This document shows, piece after piece, positions 7,763 to 36,453 of a stretch of DNA of 37,850 bases. The notes under the pieces are model-generated. The model did no database searches. It saw only the letters and a list, made by a program, of their open reading frames with translations, and was not told where the DNA came from. The position numbers and the translations under genes were made by a program. Numbering within the stretch: position 1 is the stretch's first letter; every line of letters starts with the position of its first letter. The stretch comes from Muribaculaceae bacterium (lineage in GTDB: Bacteria > Bacteroidota > Bacteroidia > Bacteroidales > Muribaculaceae), in the NCBI GenBank assembly GCA_022509125.1, contig JAFLTU010000023.1, forward strand, positions 1 to 37,850, in the 5' to 3' direction.

Positions 7763-8344
7763 ATGAACGTCAAAAAGTTTTTTGTCCTCGCGTGCCTGAT
7801 TTTGACATCCGTAGCGCCCCTCTTTTCTCAGAAGGCCGCCGTCAAAACCAACCTAATCGCCGACGCCGTAACCTCCCCTAACCTCGGATTTGAATTCCGA
7901 ATGAAACCAAAATGGACCTACGAGATTGTCGGTGAGGTCAACGCATGGAACATCCACAACCGCCGCTGGCGCCACTGGATGGTGCAGACCGGTCCACGTA
8001 TCTGGATCTGCGAGGCATTCCAGGGTTCTTTCTTCGGCCTGCAGGCTATCGGTGGCCAATTCAATATCGGCAACATCCCTAAGGCTTTTAATTTCTTGGG
8101 ACAACATTTCTCAAACCTTAAAGACCGTCGCTATCAGGGTTGGGGCGTCGGTGCCGGCATCTCTTACGGCTACGACTGGATGCTCGCTAAACACTGGAAC
8201 CTCGAGGCCGAAATCGGTGTCGGTTGGATATATACAAAATACGACCGCTACCCCTGCACCGTCTGCGGAACCAAAGAGGGTTCGGGCCACCACAACTACT
8301 ACGGCCCAACTCGCCTCTCCCTCGCAATCGAATACCTGTTCTGA
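7763..8344 (+). CDS. DUF3575 outer-membrane beta-barrel protein
   Basis: Protein of 193 residues with signal peptide MNVKKFFVLACLILTSVAPLFS followed by QKAAVKTNLIADAVTSPN, the standard start of DUF3575 proteins. The rest alternates short amphipathic strands ending in aromatics (GFEFRMKPKWTYEIVGEVNAW, GAGISYGYDWML, RLSLAIEYLF) and ends in Phe, as expected for an outer-membrane barrel. DUF3575 genes commonly lead FimA/Mfa-type fimbrial clusters in Bacteroidales, as here; a role in pilus assembly or outer-membrane anchoring is inferred. I chose ATG at 7763 because it opens directly into the signal peptide; the upstream extension is repeat DNA. It is probably first in the operon. Confidence 0.88.
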   Translation: MNVKKFFVLACLILTSVAPLFSQKAAVKTNLIADAVTSPNLGFEFRMKPKWTYEIVGEVNAWNIHNRRWRHWMVQTGPRIWICEAFQGSFFGLQAIGGQFNIGNIPKAFNFLGQHFSNLKDRRYQGWGVGAGISYGYDWMLAKHWNLEAEIGVGWIYTKYDRYPCTVCGTKEGSGHHNYYGPTRLSLAIEYLF

Positions 8345-8418
8345 AAGTTGAAAGTTGAAAGTGAAAAAGTTTAATCCCATCAACCGTAAACTGAAAACCG
8401 TAAACCGTAAACAGTAAA
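8343..8418. repeat. Heptad arrays between the DUF3575 and DUF3868 genes
   Basis: GAAAGTT, GAAAGTT, GAAAGTG (8343-8363) start inside the TGA stop codon (8342-8344) of the DUF3575 gene. A second family follows: CCGTAAA, CTGAAAA, CCGTAAA, CCGTAAA, CAGTAAA (8384-8418), ending 8 nt before the next ATG. Confidence 0.92.
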
Positions 8419-8426
8419 CCATTCAA

Positions 8427-10058
8427 ATGAAACTCCTAAATAAAGTCTTTGTTGTTAGTCTTTTGTCTATGGGTGCTTTACAGGCACTGCCAGTGGACCT
8501 TCCTGCCGGAAACAAAGACAATTCATATCTCGGTGTAACTGTCGAGAATATCTATAAGCTCGACAACGGGAAATTGGCCGTGGAACTCGCCCTCGACCTT
8601 AACCGGGTTAACATGACAAGCCAGTTCGAACAGGTCTTCACTCCTTATATATATAATGGCACCGACACTGTCCGTTTCGACTCCTTCTCTCTGACAGGCC
8701 ACAAACGCCTACTCTCCAACCAGAGAAACCACCGTGTTATGCCTGTCACTTTCTATAAGACGGAACTTATCCCCACAAAGCTTCCCCATCCAAATATCGA
8801 GGTATCAGCCCTCGGCGGCGCTGCAGGCAACTACGACCTCCGAGTGCTAACCAACTGGAGAGATTGGATGGAGACGGCCACCTTCGGCATCGATTCCGAA
8901 GTATTCGGATGCGCCAACTGCCTCAAGAAACTCGACGGCATCGGCGACGAATGGATGCCCCTCGCTCAAACCGACTTCGTGCAGCGCAGCTTCTTCCCCG
9001 AATTCCTTTATGTCACCCCCGTGGCCGAAGCGGTCAAGATGCGTGAAATCTCTGCAAGAGCATATATCGACTTCCCGGTGAACCGCACCGAAATCTATCC
9101 CGACTATCGCCGCAATCCCGAGGAACTCGCGAAAATCCGAGCCACCATCGACTCGGTGAAAAACGACAAAGATATCAACATCACTTCTCTCCATATTTCC
9201 GGTACTGCATCCCCTGAAGGCGGCTACCAGAACAACGTGCGACTCGCTTCGGGCCGTACCGAATCTCTCAAAAACTATGTGCAGGGTCTTTATCTTTTCC
9301 CGAAAGACTTTATCACCACGAGCTTCGAACCGGTAGACTGGCAGGGCCTCGCGGAATTCCTCCAGATGGTCAACGGTCTCTCTCAAAACCCGACCGATTC
9401 AATCCGCTATGACCAGTTCCAAAACATCCCCGGTGACCCGTCGGTTTGGGTGGCCGAAGTACCCTCCGCCACTGAAATCCTCGGTATCGTGAATTCTGAT
9501 ATGGAACCTGTGGCCCGCAACAATAAAATCAAGACCACCTATCCGTCACAATACGCCTGGTTGCTCGCCAACGTCTACCCGGCTCTCCGCCACTCAGACT
9601 ATCGCATCCAGTTCGAGATCAAGACCTACACGGAGGTAAGCGAGATCCTTGAGGTGATGGCCACCCAGCCGCAGAAACTCTCGCTCGCAGAACTCTTCGT
9701 GGCTGCCAATTCGCAGGAACCCGGTTCGGAACTTTACAACCGCGCCTTCGAGCTGGCCGTGACAATGTTCCCCGACGATGAAACCGCCAACCTCAACGCT
9801 GCCACGGCAGCAATGCAGCGCGGCGACCTCATAAGCGCCCAGCGCTACCTCAATAAGGTTGAACAGGAAACCCCCGAGGCCGATTATGCAAAGGCCATGC
9901 TCATGCTCATGCAAGGCAACCAGGAGGAGGCTCTCCAGATGTTCAACTCCCTCTCCAACTCTCTCAGCCCCGCAGTGGCCGAAAAAGCCACAGCCGCCAA
10001 AAACGGCATCGAAGAAGTTAACCGTGCAAACGGCCGTAACTTCATCCCTGCGGAATAA
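8427..10058 (+). CDS. DUF3868 protein with OmpA-like and TPR regions
   Basis: Protein of 543 residues. A signal peptide (about 1-22) is followed by an N-terminal region (about 30-120) like DUF3868, a family almost always next to DUF3575 and fimbrillin genes. Residues about 208-300 (ARAYIDFPVNRTEIYPDYRR ... HISGTASPEGGYQNNVRLAS) resemble an OmpA-like peptidoglycan-binding domain, including the TASPEG loop and NxxLAxxRA-like helix. The C-terminal part (about 420-530) consists of helical pairs like TPR repeats. Cys162 and Cys165 form a CANC pair. A periplasmic or outer-membrane protein that fixes the pilus platform to peptidoglycan is the likely role (inference). It lies 82 nt after DUF3575 and 15 nt before the next gene. 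Confidence 0.85.
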   Translation: MKLLNKVFVVSLLSMGALQALPVDLPAGNKDNSYLGVTVENIYKLDNGKLAVELALDLNRVNMTSQFEQVFTPYIYNGTDTVRFDSFSLTGHKRLLSNQRNHRVMPVTFYKTELIPTKLPHPNIEVSALGGAAGNYDLRVLTNWRDWMETATFGIDSEVFGCANCLKKLDGIGDEWMPLAQTDFVQRSFFPEFLYVTPVAEAVKMREISARAYIDFPVNRTEIYPDYRRNPEELAKIRATIDSVKNDKDINITSLHISGTASPEGGYQNNVRLASGRTESLKNYVQGLYLFPKDFITTSFEPVDWQGLAEFLQMVNGLSQNPTDSIRYDQFQNIPGDPSVWVAEVPSATEILGIVNSDMEPVARNNKIKTTYPSQYAWLLANVYPALRHSDYRIQFEIKTYTEVSEILEVMATQPQKLSLAELFVAANSQEPGSELYNRAFELAVTMFPDDETANLNAATAAMQRGDLISAQRYLNKVEQETPEADYAKAMLMLMQGNQEEALQMFNSLSNSLSPAVAEKATAAKNGIEEVNRANGRNFIPAE

Positions 10059-10073
10059 ACAACGTTTAAAGAC

Positions 10074-11417
10074 ATGAAATTACTCCATTACATATTAGCT
10101 CCAGTCCTATTGTTCGGTGCTTGGTCCTGCTCCGACAAATCAGACCCGGAACTTTCGTTGCCCCCGGTAGGTGGTGACGAATGTCTCGTTTCTATCCAAA
10201 TGCCCGTCGTGGCATTCGGCAACAGTTCCTTCGGGTCAAGGGCTGTCCCCAACACTCCAATCGATGGAAACGAGGGCACACTTCGCTCTCTCTATGTCAT
10301 GATCTTCAGCTACGATGAGGATAACAAGATATACCATCGGATGTCTTGCGAAGAAAAGATTGCGAGTGGAACAACAAATAAAGTTACTAACAATTACGAC
10401 GATCTCGTTTACAACTCAGGCGTAGGACTCGGAATCGGCACATATAAATTTTATATCCTCGCTAACTTCCTTGAATATTGGGAGGATGATGATCGCAAAA
10501 ACCTTGTTGGGGATGAAAAAAGAGAAGCCTTCGAAGCTGCTACCGATTCGGAGGAAAAGATAAAGGATCTTATCCTTACCTATAAAGGAAATATAAAAGG
10601 CGAAGAGCTCCCGATGATTTGTCTGCCCGAAAACATCTGCATCGACAATGAAGACAATACGGGTCAAGTGGCGCTCGAACATGGCGAATTCACAGTCTCC
10701 GAATCCGATGTGCTCAACCAGGAGAAGAAGACGCTTTACGCTCCCCTATCCATCCTTTGCACAAAGGTGAGGTTTACCCTCCTTTACGACCATACAGGTT
10801 TCTCATCTGAATTCCCGGCAAACGCCAGTTTCGAAATCAACCCCGGAGTCGATGTAGACAATGTCTACAAATATTTCTATATAAATTCACTTCCCGAATA
10901 TCAGGAAACTCCGGAAACGGGAAGTGAGGTGATAGGAGAGGAACCCTCCGCCGATGTAAATAGTGAATCTGATATTCCTTCTGCAGTGGCTGAGGCAGAT
11001 GACTATTTCAATATCCTTTCCAGTAGTGCCACCGAACCCATCATGATAGAAAAAACCAAGTATCCTTCCTTAGAAGATGGCACTAACGCTTATCTGGCTA
11101 TAAAGGAATCTCTTAACGTGCCAAGCAATCTTGAGAAATTAGGGACGGAAGCCACATGGACAAACTCAGAACAGAGAGCCTGGCAATGCCTGACATATCT
11201 TCCGGCAAATCCCAACTCGGAACCTGTCACTACGCTCAAAATCTCAACCGGCGGCGGGGCTGTCAATGAAAGTTATACAATTCCTCTCAGCGCCCTTACG
11301 GAAGGTTATTTCTACGATATTGTAGCAAAACTTATTACCCCCAAGATAATTGCAGTGTCAATCAACGTGAAGGTAACAGACTGGACGTATAATCCCGAAC
11401 AGTCTGTGTCATGGTAA
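10074..11417 (+). CDS. FimB/Mfa2 family fimbrial lipoprotein
   Basis: Lipoprotein of 447 residues of the FimB/Mfa2 type, the family that anchors type V pili in the outer membrane and limits their length in Porphyromonas. The signal peptide ends at AWSC (Cys19). A candidate protease site is FGSRAVP (Arg56-Ala57). The core has two-layer fimbrillin features: LRSLYVMIFSYDED, GLGIGTYKFYILANF, TLYAPLSILCTKVRFTLLYD, RAWQCLTYLPANPNSEP, and the end VKVTDWTYNPEQSVSW with C-terminal Trp. It is clearly related to the proteins at 28684 and 29975. It sits 15 nt after the DUF3868 gene. Family confident; anchor versus accessory subunit inferred. Confidence 0.85.
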   Translation: MKLLHYILAPVLLFGAWSCSDKSDPELSLPPVGGDECLVSIQMPVVAFGNSSFGSRAVPNTPIDGNEGTLRSLYVMIFSYDEDNKIYHRMSCEEKIASGTTNKVTNNYDDLVYNSGVGLGIGTYKFYILANFLEYWEDDDRKNLVGDEKREAFEAATDSEEKIKDLILTYKGNIKGEELPMICLPENICIDNEDNTGQVALEHGEFTVSESDVLNQEKKTLYAPLSILCTKVRFTLLYDHTGFSSEFPANASFEINPGVDVDNVYKYFYINSLPEYQETPETGSEVIGEEPSADVNSESDIPSAVAEADDYFNILSSSATEPIMIEKTKYPSLEDGTNAYLAIKESLNVPSNLEKLGTEATWTNSEQRAWQCLTYLPANPNSEPVTTLKISTGGGAVNESYTIPLSALTEGYFYDIVAKLITPKIIAVSINVKVTDWTYNPEQSVSW

Positions 11418-11431
11418 GGTAGAGGATTATG

Positions 11432-11551: not shown

Positions 11552-11554
11552 GTC

Positions 11555-14083
11555 TTGAAACCTATTAAACCATATATCCTTTCTCTCTTTGCAGCCGCGG
11601 TGGTCTCAGTGGCAACAACGGCCTGTAAAGACGATATAATCAACATCGACGATCCGAACGTCGCTCCATCCGAGGATGTCTCCGGAGATGCCTACTATAT
11701 GGCCTTGCGTGTCTACAACGCAGCCGCAATAGAGGCCGGAACCCGCGCTACCCACGACAGCGACGACAAGGACTACCCGGAAAACGGAAAACCATTTAAT
11801 ACGGGTCTTGCTAATGAAAATGCCCTATGCCCGGCTACTTCGTCAGAATCCTCTCCCCATTTCCTCCTGGTGTTTGAGGACAAGGAAGGATCAGATGACT
11901 CCAAGAAACTCGAGTATCTTTTCCCTTTGATAAACTGGGATTACGAAAAAAACGGCTCACAGGTTGACAACAATAATGAAACTGAAAAATCAGGCTACGT
12001 TGCCTACTATACCTTCTATACATCCTTGCAGCGTCCTGAAATTCCTAAAAATATCGGAACCCGTACGGTCTGTGTGGTCCTGAATGCAGGCGAGCAACTT
12101 AAAGCCAATCTTAAAGCGGCTGTAGGTTCTACTTATAGCGATGTAATGAGCCTGACAATCCAAGATCCCGATGCTGCTTCTACTCCGGGTGACGGCGATG
12201 AAATAGAAGGCGTCGCTATCTCTGCGGCTTCTCCTGCCGACTATCTTTTCTGCACGGATTCCGATGGCACTAAATATTTCACGATGACATCTTCAATCGT
12301 GGCTCCTCTTGATAATGATGATAATTTCAGTAAATATTACCCGAAGAGGGGAGAAACCGGTCCGGCGGTAATCAAATATAGTTCCAATCCATTCACTTGG
12401 TATCCAACCAAAGATCAGGCTGCAACTAACCCTATCTTCACTTTCTTCCTCGAACGTATGCAGGCAAAGTTCACCCTCACTTTCGAGGATCAAAAGGGAG
12501 TAAAGCATTATTTGGCCGAAAGTGGGGAACTCCATGCCGGTGATGATGGTTTTTGGAAACAGAGTCATATCGTTTTCAAATCAGGGGTAGATTTCAATCC
12601 GACGCAAGAAATAAAATACGTGAAGACATTCACTCCTCGCACCGCCGATGCAAAACCAACTTACACTATTGAAAAGGCTGCAAGCTGGAAGATTAATATC
12701 ATGGGTTGGGGCGTAAATGCCGTTGAGTCGAAGGAAAATATCTTCAAGAAAATCGGTGCATCAGCAAATTATTTTACCGGATGGAATACAAATGCTTATA
12801 GCCACATCCGTAATTTCTGGGCCGAAGATTTAAACTATTCATCGACAGCATTCCCGGATCAATACCGCGAAGCTCGGACCGTAAACGCAAATGGCGAAAT
12901 TGTTGTGGATCGTTCCATCAAAGCTTACAATGACGTTACACCCTCTCCCTCTCTCACTTATTTCAATTTCTCGGAACTCACGCAACCGGCCACTCACCAA
13001 TATTCACCGGAAAACACATTCTCGACGGATGCTTTCATTGACGGGAGTAACACCAATTCCCTTGATGATGTCGCAACGGCTAATAAATCTCAGGCTTATA
13101 TGCGAGCCGGGACTCACCTTATCCTGACTTCCCAACTCCTGATCGAGGAATTCGATGATGCAGGAGTTTATAAAGCTGATTCATTCAACAGCAACGGGGG
13201 TGCATACGATTCTTCAAAGTCGATTACCGAAGAAGGCAACCATGGTCTCTCCAAATATCTCATGAACGATATCTTCTGGAGCGAGGAGGCATATCTCGAA
13301 TATGTAGCTGAATATCTCGGCTACTGGATGCAGGAAGATGAAGAAACCTTTGGTAAAAACGACGGTATTTTCTATTATTCACCTCCTATTTCAGAAAACA
13401 ACCCAAGATATATCAACAATACCTATCTTAAAGTTGAACCCCTCTATGCTCAGGGAGCCGACGGCTGGGTACATATAATTCCCGATATCGACGAAATTTA
13501 CAATAACACTGAGAAACTTTACTTAGTGGGGGAAAATATCAAAAAAGAATCACAGCTGACAGAAGAGGAAAAGGATGATGAAAAGATAGAGGACAAATTG
13601 ATAGTCTTTTATTCAAAATTCCCGAATTTGAATACCGACGACGCCTATAAGCCTATCACACGAGCTATGTTTGAGGTGCTCGCCCTATCTCATCCCGAAT
13701 ACTTCGCTCAGCACTATAACCGGGGACGCATGTACTACGCTATTCCCGTGCAACATTACGACAATAATGGAATGACCAACCTCGTTACAGGTAAGTATGG
13801 AGTCGTAAGAAACCATTGGTATAGTTTCAACGTCACAAACTTTAGCGGGGTCGGCACTCCGGTGGATGTCCCCGAGCAGAAAATCATACCCAACAACGAG
13901 CGTTCGTTCGACCAGCTCGGAATCACCCTTTCTATCCTTCCCTGGCACGTCATGTCAGAGGAGGTGGATATCACCGAGCAACGTCCCGGCATCAATATCT
14001 CAAAGATTGACGAAGACCTCAAATTGAAAGCCAACGATTGGAACTATAGTCCCGATGAACTTGACGCAGAAGATGGATTCTAA
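11555..14083 (+). CDS. Mfa1-family fimbrillin lipoprotein (copy A1)
   Basis: Predicted pilus subunit of 842 residues, much longer than P. gingivalis Mfa1 (about 560). The lipobox is TTAC (Cys24) followed by KDDI, an export-signal-like acidic stretch. A candidate maturation site is AGTRATHD (Arg64-Ala65). The C-terminal region GKYGVVRNHWYSFNVTNFSG, then GVGTPVDVPEQKIIPNN and ILPWHV, matches the Mfa1/fimbrillin C-terminal domain (PF15495 type), where the exchanged strand lies in type V pili. The only start consistent with a signal peptide is TTG at 11555; the next ATG is past the lipobox. The C-terminal end is shared with the gene at 17028, which suggests duplication. It is preceded by heptad arrays. 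Family good; stalk versus accessory role unknown. Confidence 0.85.
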   Translation: MKPIKPYILSLFAAAVVSVATTACKDDIINIDDPNVAPSEDVSGDAYYMALRVYNAAAIEAGTRATHDSDDKDYPENGKPFNTGLANENALCPATSSESSPHFLLVFEDKEGSDDSKKLEYLFPLINWDYEKNGSQVDNNNETEKSGYVAYYTFYTSLQRPEIPKNIGTRTVCVVLNAGEQLKANLKAAVGSTYSDVMSLTIQDPDAASTPGDGDEIEGVAISAASPADYLFCTDSDGTKYFTMTSSIVAPLDNDDNFSKYYPKRGETGPAVIKYSSNPFTWYPTKDQAATNPIFTFFLERMQAKFTLTFEDQKGVKHYLAESGELHAGDDGFWKQSHIVFKSGVDFNPTQEIKYVKTFTPRTADAKPTYTIEKAASWKINIMGWGVNAVESKENIFKKIGASANYFTGWNTNAYSHIRNFWAEDLNYSSTAFPDQYREARTVNANGEIVVDRSIKAYNDVTPSPSLTYFNFSELTQPATHQYSPENTFSTDAFIDGSNTNSLDDVATANKSQAYMRAGTHLILTSQLLIEEFDDAGVYKADSFNSNGGAYDSSKSITEEGNHGLSKYLMNDIFWSEEAYLEYVAEYLGYWMQEDEETFGKNDGIFYYSPPISENNPRYINNTYLKVEPLYAQGADGWVHIIPDIDEIYNNTEKLYLVGENIKKESQLTEEEKDDEKIEDKLIVFYSKFPNLNTDDAYKPITRAMFEVLALSHPEYFAQHYNRGRMYYAIPVQHYDNNGMTNLVTGKYGVVRNHWYSFNVTNFSGVGTPVDVPEQKIIPNNERSFDQLGITLSILPWHVMSEEVDITEQRPGINISKIDEDLKLKANDWNYSPDELDAEDGF

Positions 14084-14099: not shown

Positions 14100-16778
14100 A
14101 TGAAGTTTATCCATAACATAAAGAAATTCATAATCCCGAGGAAGTCAGCGTTCGCGGCTCTTCCGGCTATATGCCTTGCAGCCGGCTCGCTCCTCTCTTC
14201 CTGTGTGGCGGAAGACCTCCCGGATTGTCCTGACAACACTCCGGATCTTCCAGGGTCGGAATATCTTCTCTCCTTCAAAATCAGTCTACCTACTCTCGGA
14301 AACTCTTCCAGGATTTCTGATCATTCCATCCTGGATGAGACTTACGATAATTATATCGACCCTACAAGAATGTATATCCTTTTCTTCATTGAGGGGGATT
14401 TCACAGAAGGTGGAGAAGACAATAGCGAAGTTATCGAGGGTGAAGATGGAAACGGCGAAAACTCAGGGGCTGAAGGTCTCCGTTCTCGCCTATCGAGCAA
14501 AGACGTCTACAGTAACTATAAGCTCTTCCACAAATTCACTGTTAAGGATCCTGCCGTCTCAATGATACCGGTGGCTTATGCCAATGATGTTGAAAAGGAG
14601 AGAGCCGGTCAGAAGGATTGGTATGTGAGAATCGCTATTCCGAAAGTTGTCAACGGTGAGAAATTCGCACAGACCCTTCGTGAAAATCGTTTCCGGATAG
14701 CCGTAGTGGCAAATGCCGAACCCGATAAAGTCCTCAAAATTGAAGTGGGCGACGACATTAATGTTTTGCACCATCAGACGGATCAGACTGATCCCTATGC
14801 TTCCAGCGATAACGCTAAGCTAACTTACGATTTCTTATATAGCAGCAACCCTAACAATAAATATAACAAGGTGCTCGGTTATTACACCGACTGGGTTGAG
14901 AGCAACAATGCTTTTTTCACCTCTGAAGAGACTACGCGTATATGGCTTCGCAACAATTGGGATCCTGAACAAGAATCAAGATGGAATGACGGGGATGGTA
15001 AACCCTATGTAAATCTATGGTCACTGTGGAATTTCAGCGGGACCGACTATCGTGATTTCTTTGAAGGTTATGAGGAGGAAATTCCTGATCCAAATAATGA
15101 AGGTTCTAAAATAACTCGTCCTGGTGAATATACTGTATACATTGATAAATGGGCGAGGAGAAATGGTAAGGTAATCTCTAAATGGATGTCTGAAGAAAAT
15201 GCTACCACTAAATTACTTGATCTAACCGACGAGGATTACACAGACTCTGAGATTGCCGAACCTACCCCCTTATATTTCAAGACAATCGATGGAGCCAAAA
15301 CCGTCACAGACGGGACAATGAAAGCTGTTAAGCTCCCCGAAGCAAATGCAGGGGACTTCGACTCCAACGACAAGATAAAAGAGTCAGGCAAAGGATATTT
15401 CAAATTCCATGCAAATGCCACAGGTAATCTTTTCATCACCGCCAAACATGGACACGACAGTTCTTTAGGAGGCACCAAAAATGAAAGTAGCATTACACTT
15501 GTAGCCCAGATTGGTAACTCTAAAAAATTCCAAAATTATACTTTTAAATATAGGAATGATAACGGTGACCCTAATGGGATACAAACTATCTCTAAAAAGA
15601 TACAGATCACAACAGCCTCTCAGGATGTATATATCTACATACGTCCTAAAGATGGCAACTCCCTCGATATCTATCAGATAGAGTTCATACAGGATAAATA
15701 CCTATACGATACTGATCGCACCGGCATAGCCCCGAGTAATGAGCAGCCTATCCCGATGTATGGCATCCAGTCTTATGAACCTCTTGGCAACCTCTGGGAG
15801 GTGGGCACAACATTCGACCTGGATAACTACAACTATATTAGCAACGATTACAATGATGTTGCTGACCCCACCAAGACATATTTCCATCCCATTTATATGC
15901 TGCGTTCGGTGGCTAAGATTGAGATCAAGATACCTACATCTCTTGAGTCTCACCACGTCTATCTGCGTAGCCTGAACAGGTATGCACGCTGGGAACCTGC
16001 CGACGTCGTTTCAAATACAAATGAAATATGGACTAAAGGCCATGACGCCTTATCCGGTCAGGACTATCTGAAAAGGGATTATTGTGAATGGTTCAATATT
16101 CAAAACCAAGGGGTCTTTTACAATCCTGAAACACAAAATCTTGATAAGATAATTGGGAAGGATGATGAAGACAATGATATAGTGACAGGTCGTCCTCAAC
16201 TTGACGTCTACAAGAAAAAACTCGCTTGGTATTATGGCACTTGGGCTAAAAATGGTCAACTTGGTGGTGTTACTCCTGAGCAAACAGTAGATGTAACAAA
16301 TGAGTTTGATTACCCGCACATAATGAATGCCCTTGTGGGCCGTTCCGACTTCTGTCGCTTCATTCCGGCAGGACATGAGGGTATCTACGACCGCTACGTC
16401 CTTTATGTAGGCGAGAAATATATCGATGATCCCGACAGCAAAGACCTCGGAGGGGCTGTGGAGACTTCTTCACCGAAGATCTGCCATATCGAATTCCGCA
16501 CTAAAGACGATCCCTACGTAAATATGGACGATGACCAGTGCTATCGCGTCTACTTCACCAAGGATGGTGTCTATGGCACTCCTCCGTCGCTCATCGATGA
16601 TGACCATGGATGGGAAACCCAATACGAAAACAAACCTGAAATTCTTAAGGAGCATTGGCCAATCTTGAGAAACCATTATTATTCTTTCACTGTGAAGGAT
16701 ATAGACAACAAGGTTGTGATCGTAGCACTTGAAGTGCTCCCCTGGCGCCAAGTCGACGATATATCCATCTCCTGGTAA
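14100..16778 (+). CDS. Fimbrillin-like lipoprotein with inserted sandwich domain (copy B1)
   Basis: Lipoprotein of 892 residues. The signal peptide is long and basic (KKFIIPRK) and ends at LLSSC (Cys35). The usual TRA site is missing; the equivalent position has GNSSRIS (Arg71). A segment LRSVAKIEIKIPTSL (around residue 605) and the end LRNHYYSFTVKDID ... VLPWRQVDDISISW are shared with the protein at 19630. Residues about 426-533 (KGYFKFHANATGNLFITAKH ... VYIYIRPKDGNSLDIYQIEF) read like an inserted beta-sandwich of the kind found in Bacteroidetes secreted pectate-lyase-like proteins. I chose ATG at 14100, 16 nt after the previous stop; in-frame ATGs at 14055 and 14073 would overlap it. Likely an accessory or tip fimbrillin (inference). 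Confidence 0.75.
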   Translation: MKFIHNIKKFIIPRKSAFAALPAICLAAGSLLSSCVAEDLPDCPDNTPDLPGSEYLLSFKISLPTLGNSSRISDHSILDETYDNYIDPTRMYILFFIEGDFTEGGEDNSEVIEGEDGNGENSGAEGLRSRLSSKDVYSNYKLFHKFTVKDPAVSMIPVAYANDVEKERAGQKDWYVRIAIPKVVNGEKFAQTLRENRFRIAVVANAEPDKVLKIEVGDDINVLHHQTDQTDPYASSDNAKLTYDFLYSSNPNNKYNKVLGYYTDWVESNNAFFTSEETTRIWLRNNWDPEQESRWNDGDGKPYVNLWSLWNFSGTDYRDFFEGYEEEIPDPNNEGSKITRPGEYTVYIDKWARRNGKVISKWMSEENATTKLLDLTDEDYTDSEIAEPTPLYFKTIDGAKTVTDGTMKAVKLPEANAGDFDSNDKIKESGKGYFKFHANATGNLFITAKHGHDSSLGGTKNESSITLVAQIGNSKKFQNYTFKYRNDNGDPNGIQTISKKIQITTASQDVYIYIRPKDGNSLDIYQIEFIQDKYLYDTDRTGIAPSNEQPIPMYGIQSYEPLGNLWEVGTTFDLDNYNYISNDYNDVADPTKTYFHPIYMLRSVAKIEIKIPTSLESHHVYLRSLNRYARWEPADVVSNTNEIWTKGHDALSGQDYLKRDYCEWFNIQNQGVFYNPETQNLDKIIGKDDEDNDIVTGRPQLDVYKKKLAWYYGTWAKNGQLGGVTPEQTVDVTNEFDYPHIMNALVGRSDFCRFIPAGHEGIYDRYVLYVGEKYIDDPDSKDLGGAVETSSPKICHIEFRTKDDPYVNMDDDQCYRVYFTKDGVYGTPPSLIDDDHGWETQYENKPEILKEHWPILRNHYYSFTVKDIDNKVVIVALEVLPWRQVDDISISW

Positions 16779-28455: not shown

Positions 28456-28480
28456 GTAGGGACATCGCGTGCGATGTCTT
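28456..28480. repeat. Dispersed palindrome, copy 2
   Basis: Identical over 25 bp to 24293-24317; core GACATCGCGTGCGATGTC at 28461-28478. It lies between the terminator and the next promoter. Confidence 0.9.
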
Positions 28481-28538: not shown

Positions 28539-28570
28539 TTTGGTCGATTTATAAAAAAAGTATAAATTTG
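28539..28570 (+). promoter_or_regulatory. Promoter of the second pilus operon
   Basis: TTTG (28539-28542), 20 nt, TAAATTTG (28563-28570), an exact consensus match. It is placed to transcribe the genes at 28684, 29975 and 33178 with a leader of about 110 nt. Confidence 0.85.
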
Positions 28571-28683: not shown

Positions 28684-29874
28684 ATGAAAAACTCATTGAC
28701 CTCCTTATGTTTAGGGAGTGCTATATTCTTTTTTGGAAGTCTCATTTCCTGTACCTCCGAGGCCCCTACCCTCCCGAACGATGACGCCAAAGAGGCAACA
28801 CTCACAATCATCGTCCCCCGACTCGTCAATACTACCCCCGATGCCGAAACCCGTGCATCCTTCGGAGTGGATGCCACAGACGAAGCAGCTATCGACGACC
28901 TCTGGATCTACGGCTTCGCAGTTGAAGGTTCATCAGGAAATGATTTCAATGCCAAGAATATAAAAGCCTCCGAAACTTCAGTTGGCACAACAACCTACAA
29001 AACCTATTCAGCCGAAGGAGTGAGAATCGGAAAATACCGCATCTATCTTCTGGCTAACCTCTCTGACTATATCACCGACACAGGACTCAAAAGTTCTTAT
29101 AATGCAGGCACCCTAACTGAAAATCAGATAGAGAAACTCGTTCTGAATTTCTCCACTACAAAAATTCCAACAAAGGGACATCTCCCAATGGCCTGTTACA
29201 AGGATGAGGTGAAAACCGGGGAAGACAACAGCACTAAAGTTACCTCGGGTGAATTCGATTTCGACACCAATAAAACGCTCTATGCCGACATGACACTCCT
29301 CTGTTCTAAAGTGCGTTACACTATCCTCTTCGACAATACGTCAGACGATTATTCCAAAAAATTCGGTAACGTGCTCGTCGATTTCAATGTAACCGACGGC
29401 ACCAGCGCCAAGAATGTGGTTTCGCAAGTGGCTTACAAAACAGGGACCGCCACCTCTACTCCCTTCGAATATACGGGCTTAGATCTTGCCAGAGTGGCCT
29501 ACCCGACTTCCACGGCCGGTCAACTTTATCTCGATATAGCCGAGAATAAAACCCTCAACTTAGGAAATGAAGTTACACTTGCCAACCTGGGGGATCCCTC
29601 CACTACCTGGGAAAATGACGGCCAAAGGGCATGGCAAGGCGTGGTTTACCTTCCTGAAAATCCTAATGGGACAACCTCAATACATTTCACACCTGAAACC
29701 TCAGCTGTGGATGAAACCAAAACCTTCTTCAACCTCAACTGGAATTCAAAGGGAATAGAACGGGGTCATTTCTATGAGGTGGTCGCCGTCATCAAAGATC
29801 CCAAGACTATCGCAGTGACAGTCAAAGTCAAAGTCAACGACTGGCAATACGAATCCCATACCACCACCTGGTGA
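28684..29874 (+). CDS. FimB/Mfa2 family fimbrial lipoprotein
   Basis: Lipoprotein of 396 residues, first gene of the second pilus operon. Lipobox SLISC (Cys23); candidate cleavage site DAETRASFG (Arg57-Ala58). It shares the landmarks of the protein at 10074 in order: IDDLWIYGFAVEG, IGKYRIYLLANLSDYI, LPMACYKDE, LYADMTLLCSKVRYTILFDN, RAWQGVVYLPENPNG, and IAVTVKVKVNDWQYE with a C-terminal Trp. The order and spacing of these blocks make homology certain by eye. It probably acts as anchor or basal subunit for a second fibre. The next gene starts 100 nt downstream after a hairpin. Confidence 0.83.
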   Translation: MKNSLTSLCLGSAIFFFGSLISCTSEAPTLPNDDAKEATLTIIVPRLVNTTPDAETRASFGVDATDEAAIDDLWIYGFAVEGSSGNDFNAKNIKASETSVGTTTYKTYSAEGVRIGKYRIYLLANLSDYITDTGLKSSYNAGTLTENQIEKLVLNFSTTKIPTKGHLPMACYKDEVKTGEDNSTKVTSGEFDFDTNKTLYADMTLLCSKVRYTILFDNTSDDYSKKFGNVLVDFNVTDGTSAKNVVSQVAYKTGTATSTPFEYTGLDLARVAYPTSTAGQLYLDIAENKTLNLGNEVTLANLGDPSTTWENDGQRAWQGVVYLPENPNGTTSIHFTPETSAVDETKTFFNLNWNSKGIERGHFYEVVAVIKDPKTIAVTVKVKVNDWQYESHTTTW

Positions 29875-29974: not shown

Positions 29975-32900
29975 ATGATGAAAAACTCTGCTAAAAATAT
30001 TTTCGCGGGCATTGTCTGCGCGCTTTCACTTGCAGCCTGCTCGGATGAAATCGGCTTTCGAGATTCCGACCCGACAGAGAGGGAGGGCATCGTGCTCAAA
30101 ATCCCGGTTATCTCACAAGAGGATTTCTCCACCGGCACCCGCGCCCTCAGCGAGGGAGAGGGAGTGGTGAAAGACCTTCATCTATACGTCTTCCAACTTC
30201 AGGATGGCCAGTCGGAATCAGACGATTCAAAATATAGTATTGTAGACGAATACAAAGGGACTGATATAACTAATCTGACGAGTCTCTCTACAGCCTATCA
30301 GGAAATCACACTTAATCTGGGTCCGGGAACCTACCGTATCTACCTGCTTGGCAACGTGGCCAATTATCTCAAGTCGTCAGGCACCGATTATAACTTCGCA
30401 GGACTCACTACAATCTCAGCCATCAAATCGCTTGACATACCCTTCACCGAGGCTATAACTCTTGAGAAGGGTTTGCCGATGGTCTGTATGTCGTCTATCC
30501 AAAAGAGCACCACGGATCCTGCGGTTTCCGTCGGAGACAACGAAAGCGTCAGCATCACAGCCAATGAAGTGAACGAAGGGACTAACCTCTATTGCGACAT
30601 GTCTTTCATTTGCTCCAAAGTGAGATACACTATCCTTTTCGATAACACTCAGGGAAGTGAGGGCATCCAAGCCGGAGTCTCGGCTGCTTTCGGAAAACAT
30701 GTGGCCGATTTCTCGGGTGTCTCGATTACGAAAGTGGCTCCGCATACAAATCTTGCCACCGAGGCTACCTCCTTCACCACCGATTTGAAGACACTCTCCG
30801 GAAGCCTCACCCAATATGCATATCCGGATGAGGCCGGATATCCCTCCATTACCAGTTCCGACCTAACAACCGCTGCATCTGATGCCAACAAATGCGCTTG
30901 GCAGGGTGTGGCCTATCTGCCTGAAAACAACGTGACGGATAGTAAAACCACTCTTAACTTCTCCGGCTCTGTAAAGGCTTCGGCAGTGGGAGACGTGATC
31001 TATTCAATTTCAAAAAACTATGAACTCGTGCCTCTCCATTCAGGCTGCACCGAAGAGGGAGCGCCCTCCTCGGATGCCAACCATGGCATCAAGCGCGGCC
31101 GTTTCTATGATATCGCCCTGACCCTCTCTTCCTACGAAGCCAACGACATAGAAATATCCGAAGCTGAATGGTCGCCTGTGACTATAAACATGGATTTCGT
31201 GCACACATTCCTGAGGCTCAATCTCACTGACGACCAGAAGAAAAACGGAATCAGCGTCACTTCGACAGAACCGGCTGAAATAGCCTACGAAACCGACGGA
31301 CGCGGCGCTATCACCCTCGACTGCGAAAAGAAACAGGGCACAGAACCCTATCTCTATATCGACTACACTTCCAAGCCTGGCAAGCTGCTCGTGAAGGTTA
31401 ATTCCGATCTCAATCTCGATGCCCTTCAAGACTCCGATTTAAAGAGCGGCACTCCTATCTCATGCTATATAGTGGCCGGAAATATCAGAAAGGAGATAAA
31501 GGTGACTTATGACATCGAACCATTTCTGACCGTTGACCCTGCATCCCTTTCGTTCAGTTGGATAGACAAGGAGCCCATGGCCGAAGACATCCATTTTGAA
31601 ACCAATCTTGGAGGCGTCAGAGTCTTTATTTCCGATGAGAACGGAAATGTATACGACCAAAATGGAAATATCGTGAATATTTCCGATGATCCCTTGGAAA
31701 CCGATAACACAACTTACGGAGAGATTACTTCCAATCTACTTACGGAGGAGGGAGCCAAGAACCAAGTCTCCACAATCTATTTCGAAAATAATGAAGAGAA
31801 AACCACTCATTCAAACCTTCAGTTGAATTGTGAAGCTAATGAGGTAGCGAGTGGCAAAATCTCGGTTCAGTCCCTTAAAGAGGCTCCAAAGGTTGTTTCC
31901 CACCATTATTTCCTCATCAGGACTATAAATTCATATAAAGGAAACCATTTCGACAAGGTGGTGGAAGTTTCCGTAATCCCCGGACAGGGAAACTATCGAG
32001 TATTCTTCCGGGCAATCAATGACTATCAGGATGATGGTTCTGAATTTCTTAAGGGTGTTGAAGCTTTCCCCTCTGATCCTTGGACTGACTGGTGGACCAA
32101 ACATTATGTCTATATCTATGGTCAAGAGGGCGAAACAGGAGGCGGATTGTCGGGAGATACCTGGAGATTCATCAATACCGACTATTCGAATGCTCCGGAA
32201 ATGAATAAAGACAATTATAATCCCGGATGGTATCTTATAGAATTGGATAAAAACCTTTATTCTCTTACCGATAACCATAAAAATGAAAAGATTACACCTG
32301 GTAGGACTTTGTTTATATTCAACAATTCGAGAGTAGGGGCAGAAATTCACCGTTGTTCCCACCACAACGACCCGGGCGTTCCTCTCTTCAACTATGAAGA
32401 CCGCGAGGGATGGTATCTTTACGACCCTACGCGTGAACCCTACTACACTGTGTGGGATGACAAACCGGCAATAGAAGATATTACATACGTGGTTTATACT
32501 CCTTTCAAACTCAACGGATGGTATAGAAACTATGGAGTCGAAATCGGAAATTCATCTTATGATGCCCATGCCAATTACGTCATATCTAAAAAATTTGATG
32601 AGGGCACAGGTCTTTGGAAGTGTTCTTCTACTCCTTCCAATGGTTACTATGTTTCCACATTAAAATTCAAGGCTCCTTCTGGAGACTATGCCAAGAATAT
32701 TATCCTACGGGGTGTAAACAGCAATAATGGGAAATACGTTTTCTGTTGCGATAACACCGGATGGAAAGAAGTGGTGCCTCGTATTTATATTTACAACAGC
32801 AAGAATGATGAATATACTTCATGGGATAACGCTCCATGTATGACCTCGGTTTCGTCTCCAAACGGATCCAACACTGATAAGCGTTGGTTTATGTATAAAT

Positions 32901-33163
32901 TACCCGAGGGTTATGAAAATGCCTATATCATTATAAAGATTCCGGATAATCAATGGCCGGGAGGAGGAGGCGTTCAAATCAACCCCGGGAAGAATAGCGG
33001 TATTATTACTATTAATGGGGCGAACGGCTCATATTCTTGGGATGGAGATGGAGATGATTACTTCTTTACAACTCTGATGGGGGGTAAGAATTTCACTCCT
33101 GAAAGCAACAAAACTATTTATGGTTATTTCGACGGGACAACCTGGCATGAAGGAAGACCTTAA
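29975..33163 (+). CDS. Giant Mfa2-like lipoprotein with BACON-like and starch-binding-like modules
   Basis: Lipoprotein of 1062 residues. Lipobox SLAAC (Cys22) followed by SDEI; maturation site STGTRALSE (Arg56-Ala57). Residues about 30-395 repeat the FimB/Mfa2 landmarks of the preceding gene (GTYRIYLLGNVANYL, CDMSFICSKVRYTILFDN, CAWQGVAYLPENN). The rest is an extension: a region about 400-600 with the BACON-like strand FLTVDPASLSFSW, then two modules (about 640-820 and 835-1055) with VYIYGQEG / IYIYNSKNDEYTSWDNAPCM, aromatic WYLIEL / WFMYKLPEGYENAYII, and TLFIFNNS, which look like CBM25/26-type starch-binding modules. It is likely a glycan-binding pilus tip or anchor-adhesin (inference). ATG at 29975 is followed at once by a second ATG. 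It lies 14 nt before the next ATG. Confidence 0.75.
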   Translation: MMKNSAKNIFAGIVCALSLAACSDEIGFRDSDPTEREGIVLKIPVISQEDFSTGTRALSEGEGVVKDLHLYVFQLQDGQSESDDSKYSIVDEYKGTDITNLTSLSTAYQEITLNLGPGTYRIYLLGNVANYLKSSGTDYNFAGLTTISAIKSLDIPFTEAITLEKGLPMVCMSSIQKSTTDPAVSVGDNESVSITANEVNEGTNLYCDMSFICSKVRYTILFDNTQGSEGIQAGVSAAFGKHVADFSGVSITKVAPHTNLATEATSFTTDLKTLSGSLTQYAYPDEAGYPSITSSDLTTAASDANKCAWQGVAYLPENNVTDSKTTLNFSGSVKASAVGDVIYSISKNYELVPLHSGCTEEGAPSSDANHGIKRGRFYDIALTLSSYEANDIEISEAEWSPVTINMDFVHTFLRLNLTDDQKKNGISVTSTEPAEIAYETDGRGAITLDCEKKQGTEPYLYIDYTSKPGKLLVKVNSDLNLDALQDSDLKSGTPISCYIVAGNIRKEIKVTYDIEPFLTVDPASLSFSWIDKEPMAEDIHFETNLGGVRVFISDENGNVYDQNGNIVNISDDPLETDNTTYGEITSNLLTEEGAKNQVSTIYFENNEEKTTHSNLQLNCEANEVASGKISVQSLKEAPKVVSHHYFLIRTINSYKGNHFDKVVEVSVIPGQGNYRVFFRAINDYQDDGSEFLKGVEAFPSDPWTDWWTKHYVYIYGQEGETGGGLSGDTWRFINTDYSNAPEMNKDNYNPGWYLIELDKNLYSLTDNHKNEKITPGRTLFIFNNSRVGAEIHRCSHHNDPGVPLFNYEDREGWYLYDPTREPYYTVWDDKPAIEDITYVVYTPFKLNGWYRNYGVEIGNSSYDAHANYVISKKFDEGTGLWKCSSTPSNGYYVSTLKFKAPSGDYAKNIILRGVNSNNGKYVFCCDNTGWKEVVPRIYIYNSKNDEYTSWDNAPCMTSVSSPNGSNTDKRWFMYKLPEGYENAYIIIKIPDNQWPGGGGVQINPGKNSGIITINGANGSYSWDGDGDDYFFTTLMGGKNFTPESNKTIYGYFDGTTWHEGRP

Positions 33164-33177
33164 TATTGAAATCTGAC

Positions 33178-36100
33178 ATGATGAAAATATATAGAATAAT
33201 CGGGAAAGCTTTATGTGCGGCCACTCTGATCGCAGGGGCTGCAGCATGCTCCGACGATTTGGAGTTACGTGGCATTGCCGGCGATGGAAATTCCCTCAAT
33301 CTAACGCTCTCTTATCCCTATTACATCGAGACGCAGTTGGGAACACGAGCCTTCGAGGATAATGCCTCCGTCTATGTGGCCTACTATAACGGAGCAACCT
33401 TCATCAAGCAAATCGCTCTGAGCAATGGACAGAAGGAATTTTCTTCCGATAACAATACAATAACTGTGTCGGTTCCAAAAGAAACGGGCGCAACAAGCCT
33501 GCATTTCATTGTGGGCTACGACCCTCAGCTCCCGTCTTCTAAAAACCTCTCCTCAATCGTATTCGACAATGCCGATGCGGCTGCCGGATATTTGTGGGGA
33601 AATTATGAGGTGAACGGTGGAACCAAAAGCGTGAAACTCCTCCACCCCATCGCCCAAATATCCGTGAAGGAAGAACTGGACAATTTCACCCTTTTGGGAT
33701 ATGAAGTCTATGGACTTTCCACCAAAGGGAGCCTCACCACTAAGGATTACAACATGAATCCGAACTCGGTGACTCCGGTTGACGGTAACTCTTTCACTCA
33801 GGCTCCCTCTTCAGTGGGCAACTCTATCGCTGATAGGAATGTTTTTGAGACTGCCAATGTTGCCGGAGATGATGGATTCGGCTCAATACGCATTATCGTC
33901 AAAGGACAATATGGAGACGATCAAACTCCATACTATTATCCGCTCTTTTTCGGACACAGGGTGGACTCCGAAGGAGAGGCAACCGATGGTTTTTCCGAAG
34001 ACCCGGAAACTTTTTCAGATATCTCATTGGTAGATATTATCAGAAATCATAAATATATCCTCAACATTTCATACGCAAGAGCTGCGGGATGGTCATCACT
34101 TGACGAGGCTTTGGCAGCCAAACCCGACAACCGGCTCGCCGTGGAAATCACTGATCAAAACGACAATATCTCGGATATCATAGCCTGTCGTGATTATGCT
34201 CTCGGTGTCCAGGCCTCCCAACTGAGCGTGAGCGGGGCTGCCGAGACTTTCTCCATTGAGGTGGTCCATACCTATAACGAGGGAAATACTCTCCCCTCTG
34301 TTTCTATCTCCTATCCCTCCGGCACCGATCCTTGGATTTCCTCCAACTCTGTGACAGCCAAAGGTTCCGCAGACATGTTTATCACAGGAGAGGCAACCAA
34401 GAAAGGCAAGAAATACTCTATAGATCTTTCTCTTAAACAAAATACAAGCAAGACCGACAGTCATTCAGCATACATAACCATAAAGGTGGGTGATCTTTCA
34501 AGAACCGTCACTCTCACCCAGCTTCCACGTGATTATATGAGGGGAGAAGACCGCACAGTCATATTGGTGGTCCCGGGAGATAGCGAACCCGTCACTACAG
34601 ACTATTTCGCATGGATCGACCAGACCGATCCGTCAAACTACTGCTTTGGAGTTCGTCCCCAAGACAATCAGGGAGAGGTAAGAAACAAGGGACTCATTTT
34701 CTCTCCGGTGGAAGTTTATTCCGACCAGATCTCCTATCTGATTCCTAAAAAGTATGGCGACGTAATATCGGATGTGACCGGATTTAATATCGAAATATTT
34801 ACATCAGGTACAGGTAATTTCGCACAATACAATAACAATTATTGGGAGGTGAAGGCCAAATCCTTCCCCGGGGATCTGGGAAAAACCGTAATGATGATTC
34901 AAAATCCTACGGATGGAGACATCGAATATGATCTCTATATCTCGGGATTTTTCCATGAGCTTACTTCCGAGATGATTTCTTCTTATGCCAATCCTGCTTT
35001 CTTAGTCAACCCTGGTTGGTATTATTACGAATTTGTAAAGACGGCAGCCGGATCTTTCATTCTCGACCGCAACATAGGCGCGCCCACCAATGCTCCATAT
35101 ATCTCCACCAACATTGGGTATAAAGGCAACAAGGGAGCCATCGGAGGATATTTCAAAATCGCCACGGAGAGATATAAAGCCAATGTCACTGAAGACGACA
35201 ATTTCTCTTATTGGGAAAAACGCTATTATAGCGACAAGACTATTCTGGAAACTCTTGGATTACCTGAAAATAAAAATGGTTTGCATATCCCGACCAAGGG
35301 AGATATAGGCGATCTTCAACTGACGCTGGGGCATCCTGCTTCTGAAACCGATGCTGAGGCCAATGTGTCAAGCGTTATAGGCACAGGTATTGAGGGCACT
35401 TCAGTAACAGCCTATATTCCCCATAGCGGATATTACGAAGACAACACCCTGAAACTTCCCACACGAGCAAATCTTTGGACCAGCACTATATATTGCGAGC
35501 CTCAGGGGTTCCATCCCAATGTGGATAAATTCAGCAATATTAATTTCGGATTTTGGTATTATTACCTTGACGCGCAGGCAAAGGATGATTACTTGAAATC
35601 CTTCAGCCAGATTAGATGCACCGACGCCACTGCCGATGATTTCTCCGATGCCCTTATCTATCGGTATATGCCGATCCGGCTGGTGTGGAGTACTGCAAAC
35701 GATAGTGACGAGCAATTTGGAAATGGGTCAGGCGATTCCGGCAATGATTCTCCGAAATATGAGACTCCCTCGAAAGGCACTGATATTTTCCTGCGCGGTT
35801 CATTCAACAATTGGAAAACCGACAATCCTGCCTGGGAATTCAATGTGGTTACAGCCAACTCGGAATATCTTTCCGACTATGTGGAAATCCCCAACGGCGC
35901 CAACTTCAAAATCGGCGGCAAGGACGGATGGGATATTTATAATTTCGGTGGAACCAACTCTGACCAAAATTTGCAACATAACGTTGAACGCTCCTTATTC
36001 TGGAATGATAAGGATCTGTTTATGCAAAATGACTTCCACGGCTACATCCGCTTTAAGCACAATGGCCGATCCAACAGCACCATCATAGCCGAAACCGTAG

Positions 36101-36453
36101 AACCCTTCAAATTCAATACTCGAATAACTTTCTATGTTACTTCTAATAGCAATTTTAAGATCAATAATTTATCACCTAGGTATGTCAAGTATTGGTTTGA
36201 TGACGAAGAGAATTCAACAGGTTATTTCTATTTGAATCATAATGTTGATGATGGGGGGAATTATTATGTTTGTGATGACTGGCCTAATATATTAAATCCA
36301 ATAATTAAGAACGACAAAACCTATTATAAGATTTATTACCGGCTGGCAACTGATTTGAATGGTTCCAACCAGACAAGACCTTATATCATAACCAAAGAAA
36401 AATGCCTTGGTAATGAACCAGAATTAAGATATTATATCAATAAACTTGATTAG
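33178..36453 (+). CDS. Giant fimbrillin with BACON, FISUMP and SusE/F-like modules
   Basis: Lipoprotein of 1091 residues. Lipobox GAAAC (Cys24) followed by SDDL; maturation site TQLGTRAFED (Arg57-Ala58). About 35-320 is fimbrillin-like (KSVKLLHPIAQISVKEEL). About 339-447 is a BACON-like domain (LGVQASQLSVSGAAETFSIE ... RTVTLTQLP). About 600-835 looks like a Fibrobacter-type major paralogous (FISUMP) domain: ILDRNIGAPTNAP, GGYFKIATER, GLHIPTKGDIGDLQ, NLWTSTIYC, and YRYMPIRLVWS. About 862-975 is a SusE/F-like domain (IFLRGSFNNWKTDNPAWEFN ... NFKIGGKDGWDIYNF) akin to those at 24519 and 27530. The last 115 residues are unassigned and AT-rich. ATG at 33178 (ATGATG) is chosen; the frame opens at a TTG four codons earlier. 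Likely tip adhesin. Confidence 0.75.
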   Translation: MMKIYRIIGKALCAATLIAGAAACSDDLELRGIAGDGNSLNLTLSYPYYIETQLGTRAFEDNASVYVAYYNGATFIKQIALSNGQKEFSSDNNTITVSVPKETGATSLHFIVGYDPQLPSSKNLSSIVFDNADAAAGYLWGNYEVNGGTKSVKLLHPIAQISVKEELDNFTLLGYEVYGLSTKGSLTTKDYNMNPNSVTPVDGNSFTQAPSSVGNSIADRNVFETANVAGDDGFGSIRIIVKGQYGDDQTPYYYPLFFGHRVDSEGEATDGFSEDPETFSDISLVDIIRNHKYILNISYARAAGWSSLDEALAAKPDNRLAVEITDQNDNISDIIACRDYALGVQASQLSVSGAAETFSIEVVHTYNEGNTLPSVSISYPSGTDPWISSNSVTAKGSADMFITGEATKKGKKYSIDLSLKQNTSKTDSHSAYITIKVGDLSRTVTLTQLPRDYMRGEDRTVILVVPGDSEPVTTDYFAWIDQTDPSNYCFGVRPQDNQGEVRNKGLIFSPVEVYSDQISYLIPKKYGDVISDVTGFNIEIFTSGTGNFAQYNNNYWEVKAKSFPGDLGKTVMMIQNPTDGDIEYDLYISGFFHELTSEMISSYANPAFLVNPGWYYYEFVKTAAGSFILDRNIGAPTNAPYISTNIGYKGNKGAIGGYFKIATERYKANVTEDDNFSYWEKRYYSDKTILETLGLPENKNGLHIPTKGDIGDLQLTLGHPASETDAEANVSSVIGTGIEGTSVTAYIPHSGYYEDNTLKLPTRANLWTSTIYCEPQGFHPNVDKFSNINFGFWYYYLDAQAKDDYLKSFSQIRCTDATADDFSDALIYRYMPIRLVWSTANDSDEQFGNGSGDSGNDSPKYETPSKGTDIFLRGSFNNWKTDNPAWEFNVVTANSEYLSDYVEIPNGANFKIGGKDGWDIYNFGGTNSDQNLQHNVERSLFWNDKDLFMQNDFHGYIRFKHNGRSNSTIIAETVEPFKFNTRITFYVTSNSNFKINNLSPRYVKYWFDDEENSTGYFYLNHNVDDGGNYYVCDDWPNILNPIIKNDKTYYKIYYRLATDLNGSNQTRPYIITKEKCLGNEPELRYYINKLD

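Follow-up and report, generated by a model that had tools for sequence, protein, structure and literature searches.

Do two type V pilus operons that surround a glycan-degrading enzyme form one system with it, or do two separate systems lie side by side? The question is raised by a Muribaculaceae bacterium in which two co-directional runs of lipoprotein fimbrillin genes enclose a glycoside hydrolase of family 30 (GH30) and two secreted proteins. The stretch analysed, referred to as the window, is a whole contig of 37,850 nucleotides, C16 of genome G000 (a draft of 2.33 Mb in 81 contigs, 88.6% complete); G numbers denote the genomes of the genus that were compared, G000 being the window's own, C numbers their contigs and L numbers fetched stretches. 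The cluster is probably chromosomal because genes for EF-G and a GlmU-like protein lie at one end of the window and an aldolase gene at the other. A first-pass annotation had proposed a single system, in which the fibres bind a glucan and the GH30 works on it. We lean, by a little, towards two things side by side: type V pili with starch-type modules and, next to them, a separate GH30 accessory block for beta-1,6-glucan. The pili are likely to grip a glycan, and it is the starch-type modules that make them interesting.

These modules belong to the second pilus run (28684-36453), which consists of three lipoproteins, one with a FimA domain above the Pfam cut-off. Its features are as follows, proteins being named by the window position at which their genes start.

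28539..28570, forward strand: Bacteroidota-type promoter of run 2, TTTG-N20-TAnnTTTG, from a motif scan.
28684..29874, forward strand: lipoprotein fimbrillin, first of run 2, with a lipobox; its relatives (up to 241 bits) lie beside other large terminal pilins.
29975..33163, forward strand: large penultimate pilin with a FimA domain and a long C-terminal extension, from Pfam and alignment.
32747..32974, forward strand: approximate place, in 29975, of the CBM26 of its orthologues, from alignment; undetectable by profile in the window copy.
33178..36453, forward strand: large terminal (tip-type) pilin, from family search, alignment and model.
33280..34194, forward strand: two pilin domains of 33178 (residues 35-339).
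34198..34536, forward strand: BACON/Ig-like domain of 33178 (residues 341-453).
35011..35697, forward strand: conserved region of the tip family, about residues 612-840 of 33178, from alignment.
35767..36054, forward strand: SusE/F-like module of 33178 (residues 864-959), from profile match and model.

The terminal pilin, 33178, was said to end in the same type of module as the secreted neighbours of the GH30, and it does. Residues 864-959 score 50.8 bits with a profile that was built without 33178 from 11 modules found outside the pili; nine of these belong to six proteins from other members of the genus and two to the secreted protein 24519. The six outside hosts include no protein with a pilin-like N-terminus; Pfam identifies one of them as a SusE (30.3 bits, cut-off 25.2), and a CotH protein is also among them. 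The same profile also matches the tips of G131 (37.9 bits), G052 (16.8 bits) and G056 (12.5 bits). With 15 modules pooled, the best solved match among 177635 sequences was SusF (4fe9, E 2.4e-5), followed by weaker matches (E 0.0058 and above) to alpha-amylase, AMPK beta chains, branching enzyme and pullulanase, mostly of one kind. Pfam gave the 15 modules sub-threshold matches only, CBM53 appearing in two of them, and the modules are divergent, with 19-36% identity to that of 33178. As judged from these profile comparisons, the SusE/F-like label of the 33178 module is correct. The GxFNGW...FKI motif, SusF as best solved match, a Pfam SusE among the hosts and CBM26 in orthologues all liken the pilus modules to those of SusE/SusF and CBM26 proteins; unlike the latter, they are fused to pilins, and the kinship is one of sequence. 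Two CotH-kinase proteins of the genus (L102:5035-7518 in G029 and L046:862-3243 in G020) combine SusE/F-like modules of the tip's type with a weak CBM26 match.

In an AlphaFold model of 33178, the mean predicted local distance difference test score (pLDDT) is 59.4, and the module is among the best parts, all-beta and at pLDDT 79-92 over residues 881-970. The alignment behind the model held nine module rows from non-pilus proteins and seven tip homologues, and in it the tips of five relatives were truncated ahead of their C-terminal arrays. A fold search matched the N-terminus to solved type V pilins at middling Z and with a large root-mean-square deviation, and Foldseek returned mixed beta-sandwich proteins, including the fimbrial assembly protein 3r4r and the glucan-binding surface glycan-binding protein (SGBP) 6e57.

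For the penultimate pilin, 29975, whose FimA domain scores 29.2 bits (cut-off 21.4), the claim of a CBM26 module is indirect, because the module goes undetected in the window copy and the claim rests on alignment with orthologues. The CBM25/26-like modules that the first-pass annotation placed at the end of 29975 thus find no profile match in the window copy, and what stands is that the orthologues of G153 and G123 carry CBM26 (39.7 bits, cut-off 28.1); the C-terminus of 29975 aligns with orthologues at 29-39% identity. CBM26 also lies above the cut-off in tips orthologous to 33178 (G021, G039 and G056), and a profile that includes these modules matches the Ruminococcus bromii amylases Amy16, Amy10 and Amy4, as well as Sas6 and Amy13K. 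Foldseek with the model of the 29975 C-terminus returned mostly antibody-like folds (best E 5.5e-3).

At E 1e-10, the 33178 family occurs in eight of the 111 genomes of the genus, the window genome included, and in all seven others a 29975-type gene adjoins the 33178-type gene. DUF3575/DUF3868 genes head the run in four of these seven (G052, G131, G153 and G123); in G039 the end of a DUF3868 gene lies at the contig edge, and the contigs of the remaining two begin or end too near. Pilus subunits carry CBM26 in all eight genomes. Together the eight hold 67 CBM26 open reading frames (ORFs), counted as distinct frames picked by eye with further matches in the same frame dropped, and with G056 C2:5678 and C52:1509, which share length, ends and bit score and are probably one gene, counted twice. 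Pilus loci account for 25 of the ORFs, six lie beside SusD/SusC and 36 elsewhere, many of the last with tails like those of type IX secretion system (T9SS) substrates. A pilin-like N-terminus was found in 19 of the 25, some of them on 26-34 bits, with queries partly from the same genomes, so that some matches are self-matches; G052 C28:22135 is cut by the end of its fetched stretch. Neighbours alone classed the other six, one of which, G123 C23:37140, is a secreted T9SS-tailed protein, no pilin. Within the window's own genome, two more pilus loci have CBM26 on a large pilin, above the cut-off on C11 (39.5 bits) and below it on C6 (24.7 bits). Directly downstream of the 29975/33178-type pilus operon of G123 lies a T9SS-tailed secreted protein with CBM26 below the cut-off and no enzyme domain (L121:13334-16576).

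One alternative, which we consider unlikely, is that the terminal modules are structural only: beta-sandwiches of shared ancestry whose role is to stiffen the fibre or to cap it and which have lost sugar binding, the adhesive part being the region at about residues 612-840. This region is well conserved among tips and resembles Fib_succ_major in two other tips of the genus at sub-threshold scores (28.7 and 30.9 bits, cut-off 33.9), while a Pfam scan of the window's 33178 gave no Fib_succ_major match. The G153 tip ends after a region of this type with no further module, and the CBM26 copy of the window's 29975 has diverged too far to be detected. Yet several orthologues have kept CBM26 above the cut-off, and one position of the tip is occupied by modules of unrelated type in different tips, which fits selection for binding and not for a scaffold.

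Nor does it seem probable that the modules have changed ligand, starch being the wrong substrate, and that what the pili grip is mucin, capsule or another glycan of host or bacterial origin. The divergence of the modules would suit such a change, as would the statements, in the available text of a 2025 review, that lectin domains are present in some type V fimbriae and that the ligands of type V pili are very poorly known (PMC12632263). On the other side stands the company that CBM26 keeps outside the pilus loci, where it occurs beside SusD/SusC (the six ORFs above) and on alpha-amylases, which make up three of the four non-pilus CBM26 proteins scanned; the fourth is the secreted protein encoded beside the G123 pilus operon. 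Starch-type modules on glycan-gripping pili remain our preferred account of the fibres, and we turn to the genes between the runs.

24293..24317, forward strand: 25-bp palindromic repeat before the GH30 block.
24519..25781, forward strand: secreted protein with two SusE/F-like modules (residues 18-112 and 115-199), a proline-rich linker and a T9SS-like C-terminal tail.
25829..27292, forward strand: GH30 of the BT3312 endo-1,6-beta-glucanase type, from profiles, solved match and tree; no lipobox.
27530..28360, forward strand: secreted protein with two SusE/F-like modules (the first weak) and a T9SS-like tail (residues 229-276).
28456..28480, forward strand: second direct copy of the 25-bp palindromic repeat, after the GH30 block.

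The description of this block as a GH30 with two secreted proteins of paired SusE/F-like modules was borne out by the family match of the enzyme (PF02055, 154.3 bits) and by module-profile matches. The two modules of 24519, which are themselves part of the non-pilus profile, score 97.2 and 61.9 bits with it; those of 27530 score 8.8 bits (residues 29-94, weak) and 25.3 bits (residues 133-222), and 27530 alone had no match against solved chains. The enzyme matches the endo-1,6-beta-glucanase family NF053856 at 606.6 bits, below the curated cut-off of 700, and its best solved match is BT3312 of Bacteroides thetaiotaomicron (5ngk, E 4.7e-154). The catalytic glutamates, acid/base and nucleophile, are present (Glu235 and Glu336), and His281, Asn282, Asp286, Trp345 and Trp377 of BT3312 have counterparts as well. 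At the position of Cys396 the window enzyme has Gly; a special loss of this substrate-site cysteine was considered and rejected, Gly occurring in 14 of 56 rows, including enzymes from polysaccharide utilization loci (PULs) of the genus.

In a tree of the 56 rows, the window GH30 pairs with a copy from G129 (100/100) on a long branch without lipobox, within a 14-row clade of the genus (99/97) whose members come mostly from PULs; a Muribaculaceae bin and a Bacteroidales bin from horse faeces group with three genus enzymes. At E 1e-70 the GH30 occurs in 19 of the 111 genus genomes. The window's genome has a PUL of its own on C23, in the order SusC-SusD-GH30-DUF5016 protein-GH3, the same content as BT3310-BT3314 of PUL1,6-beta-glucan (BT3309-BT3314), which the accessible part of its description gives as SusCD-like BT3310-11, the GH30_3 enzyme BT3312, the DUF5016 SGBP BT3313 and the GH3 enzyme BT3314 (PMC5481569). 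The window block differs from that locus in a GH30 without lipobox, accompanied by two SusE/F-like T9SS-tailed proteins instead of SusCD; as the first-pass annotation had said, the window holds no susC or susD (none among 18 frames scanned with Pfam). Further domain scans bear out the PUL and SusE labels.

In G129 the order [24519-like]-[GH30]-[DUF6377 protein]-[27530-like], in which the DUF6377 protein is perhaps a regulator, diverges from a SusC-SusD-GH30-GH3 set, and no fimbrillin match was found on the 30 kb read around it, one DUF3868-like protein matching weakly. More widely, 48 of 55 fetched GH30 stretches have SusC or SusD (not found in five of 20 same-genus and two of 35 named stretches), and fimbrillins lie near the GH30 in a single one of the 55, the C23 copy of the window's own genome. 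L116 and L117 are two stretches of the one G129 locus. All queries for pilus genes came from this genus, and distant relatives may be missed for that reason; two further weak signals, one from a DUF3868-like protein in L116 (35-69 bits) and one of 25 bits from an ORF in L122, were not counted as fimbrillins. Because the 30 kb read around the G129 block gave no fimbrillin match and 48 of the 55 stretches have SusC or SusD, we rejected membership of the GH30 in the pilus system as the leading interpretation, and with it that part of the earlier proposal; the part that stood is that modules of carbohydrate-binding families occur on the terminal pilins. Nor did the pilus-GH30 order, whose recurrence in relatives had been suggested as a check, reappear on the stretches fetched: the 29975-33178 pair is found in seven of 110 other genomes, and in none of the seven is there a GH30 on the fetched stretch.

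A single glucan-adhesive system, with fibres that hold beta-glucan while the GH30 digests it, appears very unlikely to us. In the window its parts do adjoin on one strand, and the SusE/F-like module type is common to the tip 33178 and to 24519 and 27530. Set against this are not only the G129 block without fimbrillins and the seven pilin pairs without GH30, but also the separate promoter before 28684 and the -7 box before 27530, as well as a difference in chemistry, since kinship with CBM26 and SusF points to alpha-glucan and the GH30 to beta-1,6-glucan. The GH30 block is probably a displaced beta-1,6-glucan accessory, and its link with the pili probably an accident of neighbourhood.

Several observations weigh against these conclusions. 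With regard to the modules, CBM26 was undetected in the window's own 29975 by Pfam, by PF16738 at E 0.1 and by a non-pilus CBM26 profile; its C-terminus was modelled poorly (pLDDT 56.5), and no match to that model was usable; and the fold search with 33178, by which the module was barely covered, listed neither SusF nor a match to the C-terminal module on its own. The eight positive genomes were, moreover, chosen for having the tip. A counter-sample of six near-complete genomes without such a tip (G009, G018, G004, G030, G034 and G041) yielded no CBM26 at E 0.01 in four (G004, G030, G034 and G041), and in G009 and G018 none of 15 CBM26 ORFs lies beside pilus genes. On this result we rejected the view that CBM26 pili are a trait of the genus at large, and starch-type pili therefore mark a sub-lineage, not the genus. 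With regard to the separation of pili and enzyme, the second beta-1,6-glucan locus of the window's genome, on C23, is flanked by fimbrillin genes on both sides (about 45000-57800 and 71600-89100), so that both such loci of this genome lie near pilins, which an accident leaves to chance. The genome is rich in pilins, with 13 Fimbrillin_C matches (seven of them on C23) compared with three in G129, and by a hand estimate the regions up to 7 kb away from a FimA or Fimbrillin_C match make up about 7% of the assembly; for two loci of two, this gives a chance of about 0.5%, a figure that was obtained post hoc and for pilins that are clustered. A species-level link between pili and fungal glucan may therefore exist. 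It is also possible, because SusE/F-like modules occur in the tip and in both neighbours of the GH30, that the tip, 24519 and 27530 would have a ligand in common.

The C-terminal tails of the two secreted proteins (window 28214-28357 for residues 229-276 of 27530, and 25647-25778 for the C-terminus of 24519) resemble a divergent T9SS sorting domain below the cut-off of TIGR04183: the 27530 tail scores 15.6 bits (cut-off 23), and the 24519 tail gave no match. SprA is present in the genome, and 24519 and 27530 may be exported by the T9SS. Matches to 27530 occur in 59 of 60 other genus members searched, with up to 22 per genome, most of those listed being over the last ~48 residues. As for how the block came to lie where it does, the two repeats that bracket it fit an insertion or rearrangement, without proving one. 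They are REP-like (repetitive extragenic palindromic), and their 20-bp core has five exact copies in the genome, the two in the window and others at C13:20556, C33:12055 and C72:758. On C13 the copy precedes the frame of a 27530 paralogue by about 220 bases.

The first pilus run (7763-24256) is the longer of the two and comprises a DUF3575 protein, a DUF3868-like protein and then six lipoproteins, two of them with Fimbrillin_C by Pfam.

7618..7649, forward strand: Bacteroidota-type promoter of run 1, TTTG-N20-TAnnTTTG, from a motif scan.
7763..8344, forward strand: DUF3575 protein, first gene of run 1 (218.7 bits on a longer frame from 7544).
8427..10058, forward strand: DUF3868-like/TPR protein (16.7 bits, below the cut-off of 27); its relatives head pilus operons of other species.
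10074..11417, forward strand: lipoprotein fimbrillin with a lipobox and no Pfam match, which we take to be FimB/Mfa2-like.
11555..14083, forward strand: Mfa1-type fimbrillin (Fimbrillin_C, 63.2 bits).
14100..16778, forward strand: fimbrillin-like lipoprotein, from its place in the run, relatives on the genome's own contig C6 and a lipobox; family scans used frames starting at 14103 and 14055.
17028..19601, forward strand: Mfa1-type fimbrillin (Fimbrillin_C, 47.4 bits).
19630..21621, forward strand: fimbrillin-like lipoprotein, from relatives and a lipobox.
21872..24256, forward strand: final lipoprotein of run 1, with a lipobox and no family match.

The existence of two lipoprotein fimbrillin runs, each with its own consensus promoter, was thereby confirmed. 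The frames are open where they had been placed, with start codons checked; a lipobox, judged by eye from the protein sequence, is present in all nine fimbrillin-type proteins (10074, 11555, 14100, 17028, 19630, 21872, 28684, 29975 and 33178); and pilin domains of the FimA/Mfa1 fold are present in proteins of both runs, by FimA and Fimbrillin_C matches. A sigma-70 promoter scan is unsuited to Bacteroidota. In the scan for the Bacteroidota-type motif, with nested starts and a looser TTG box counted, the forward strand gave eight rows, whereas 40 dinucleotide shuffles averaged 1.3 and reached 5 at most; there were seven rows on the reverse strand, so the motif also occurs away from these genes. 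Under the strict TTTG box three forward sites remain in the window, those of the two runs and a third at 36504, behind the last gene. Upstream of 27530 there is a -7 box alone, and no promoter was found by the motif scan in the 200 bases upstream of 24519. Scans of the window with Rfam at gathering cut-offs and for tRNAs gave no matches. Short direct repeats lie upstream of run 1 (7436-7560), and the stretch before 21872 (21600-21870) opens a longer frame with repeated peptides that is probably not coding.

How, then, might such pili work? Type V pili are described, in the available text of the 2025 review, as built from surface lipoprotein precursors by proteolytic trimming and by assembly through the incoming pilin's C-terminus, with a C-terminal ligand domain on the tip (PMC12632263). 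The window's pili resemble those of the FimA/Mfa1 kind in Porphyromonas and Bacteroides in their lipoprotein pilins, their FimA and Fimbrillin_C domains and their order of small pilins followed by large terminal ones, and differ in that the last two subunits carry starch-type modules (SusE/F-like, and CBM26 in orthologues). By analogy, the subunits would reach the outer surface as lipoproteins and, after processing, polymerise by strand exchange, as is known for the family, with 33178 presumably at the fibre tip and 29975 just below it. The extra C-terminal modules of these two subunits, which belong to starch-binding families, could then hold particles of alpha-glucan, or glycans like it, at the end of the fibre. 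They would share their origin with secreted amylases and SusE-type proteins of the genus and would be swapped at the tip between species. It is tempting to go further and suppose that, in a lineage of Bacteroidales, fibres with interchangeable CBM26 and SusE/F-type modules on their last two subunits hold on to distant starch granules or glycogen as amylases secreted by the T9SS break them down, although we put this forward tentatively, as a possibility somewhat short of even. The GH30 block, on the other hand, would have arisen by duplication as an accessory to the beta-1,6-glucan locus of the genus, with a BT3312-type endo-1,6-beta-glucanase free of a lipid anchor and two secreted SusE/F-like proteins with T9SS-type tails, and may act together with the C23 PUL on beta-1,6-glucan of fungi or mushrooms. 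Genome rearrangement would have set it between the pilus operons, with no need of it by the pili.

CBM26-type modules are also found in the starch adherence and amylase proteins of R. bromii (Amy16, Amy10, Amy4 and Sas6). Those proteins belong to another phylum and are displayed in another way, not on a pilus. For the family S24-7, the available part of one study reports fimbriae, T9SS and CBM26 enrichment, each separately (PMC4936053). In the open-licence literature searched, at the level of titles and the openings of abstracts and, for PMC12632263, PMC8551831 and PMC4936053, of passages, we found no mention of starch-type modules in type V pili.

The correction concerning the GH30 illustrates that adjacency in one genome can mislead, and that comparison across the genus points instead to a beta-1,6-glucan accessory. 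For the pili themselves, the module families would name a class of ligand, namely alpha-glucan. If this is true, some gut Bacteroidales would possess a starch-adhesion organelle apart from the Sus complex.

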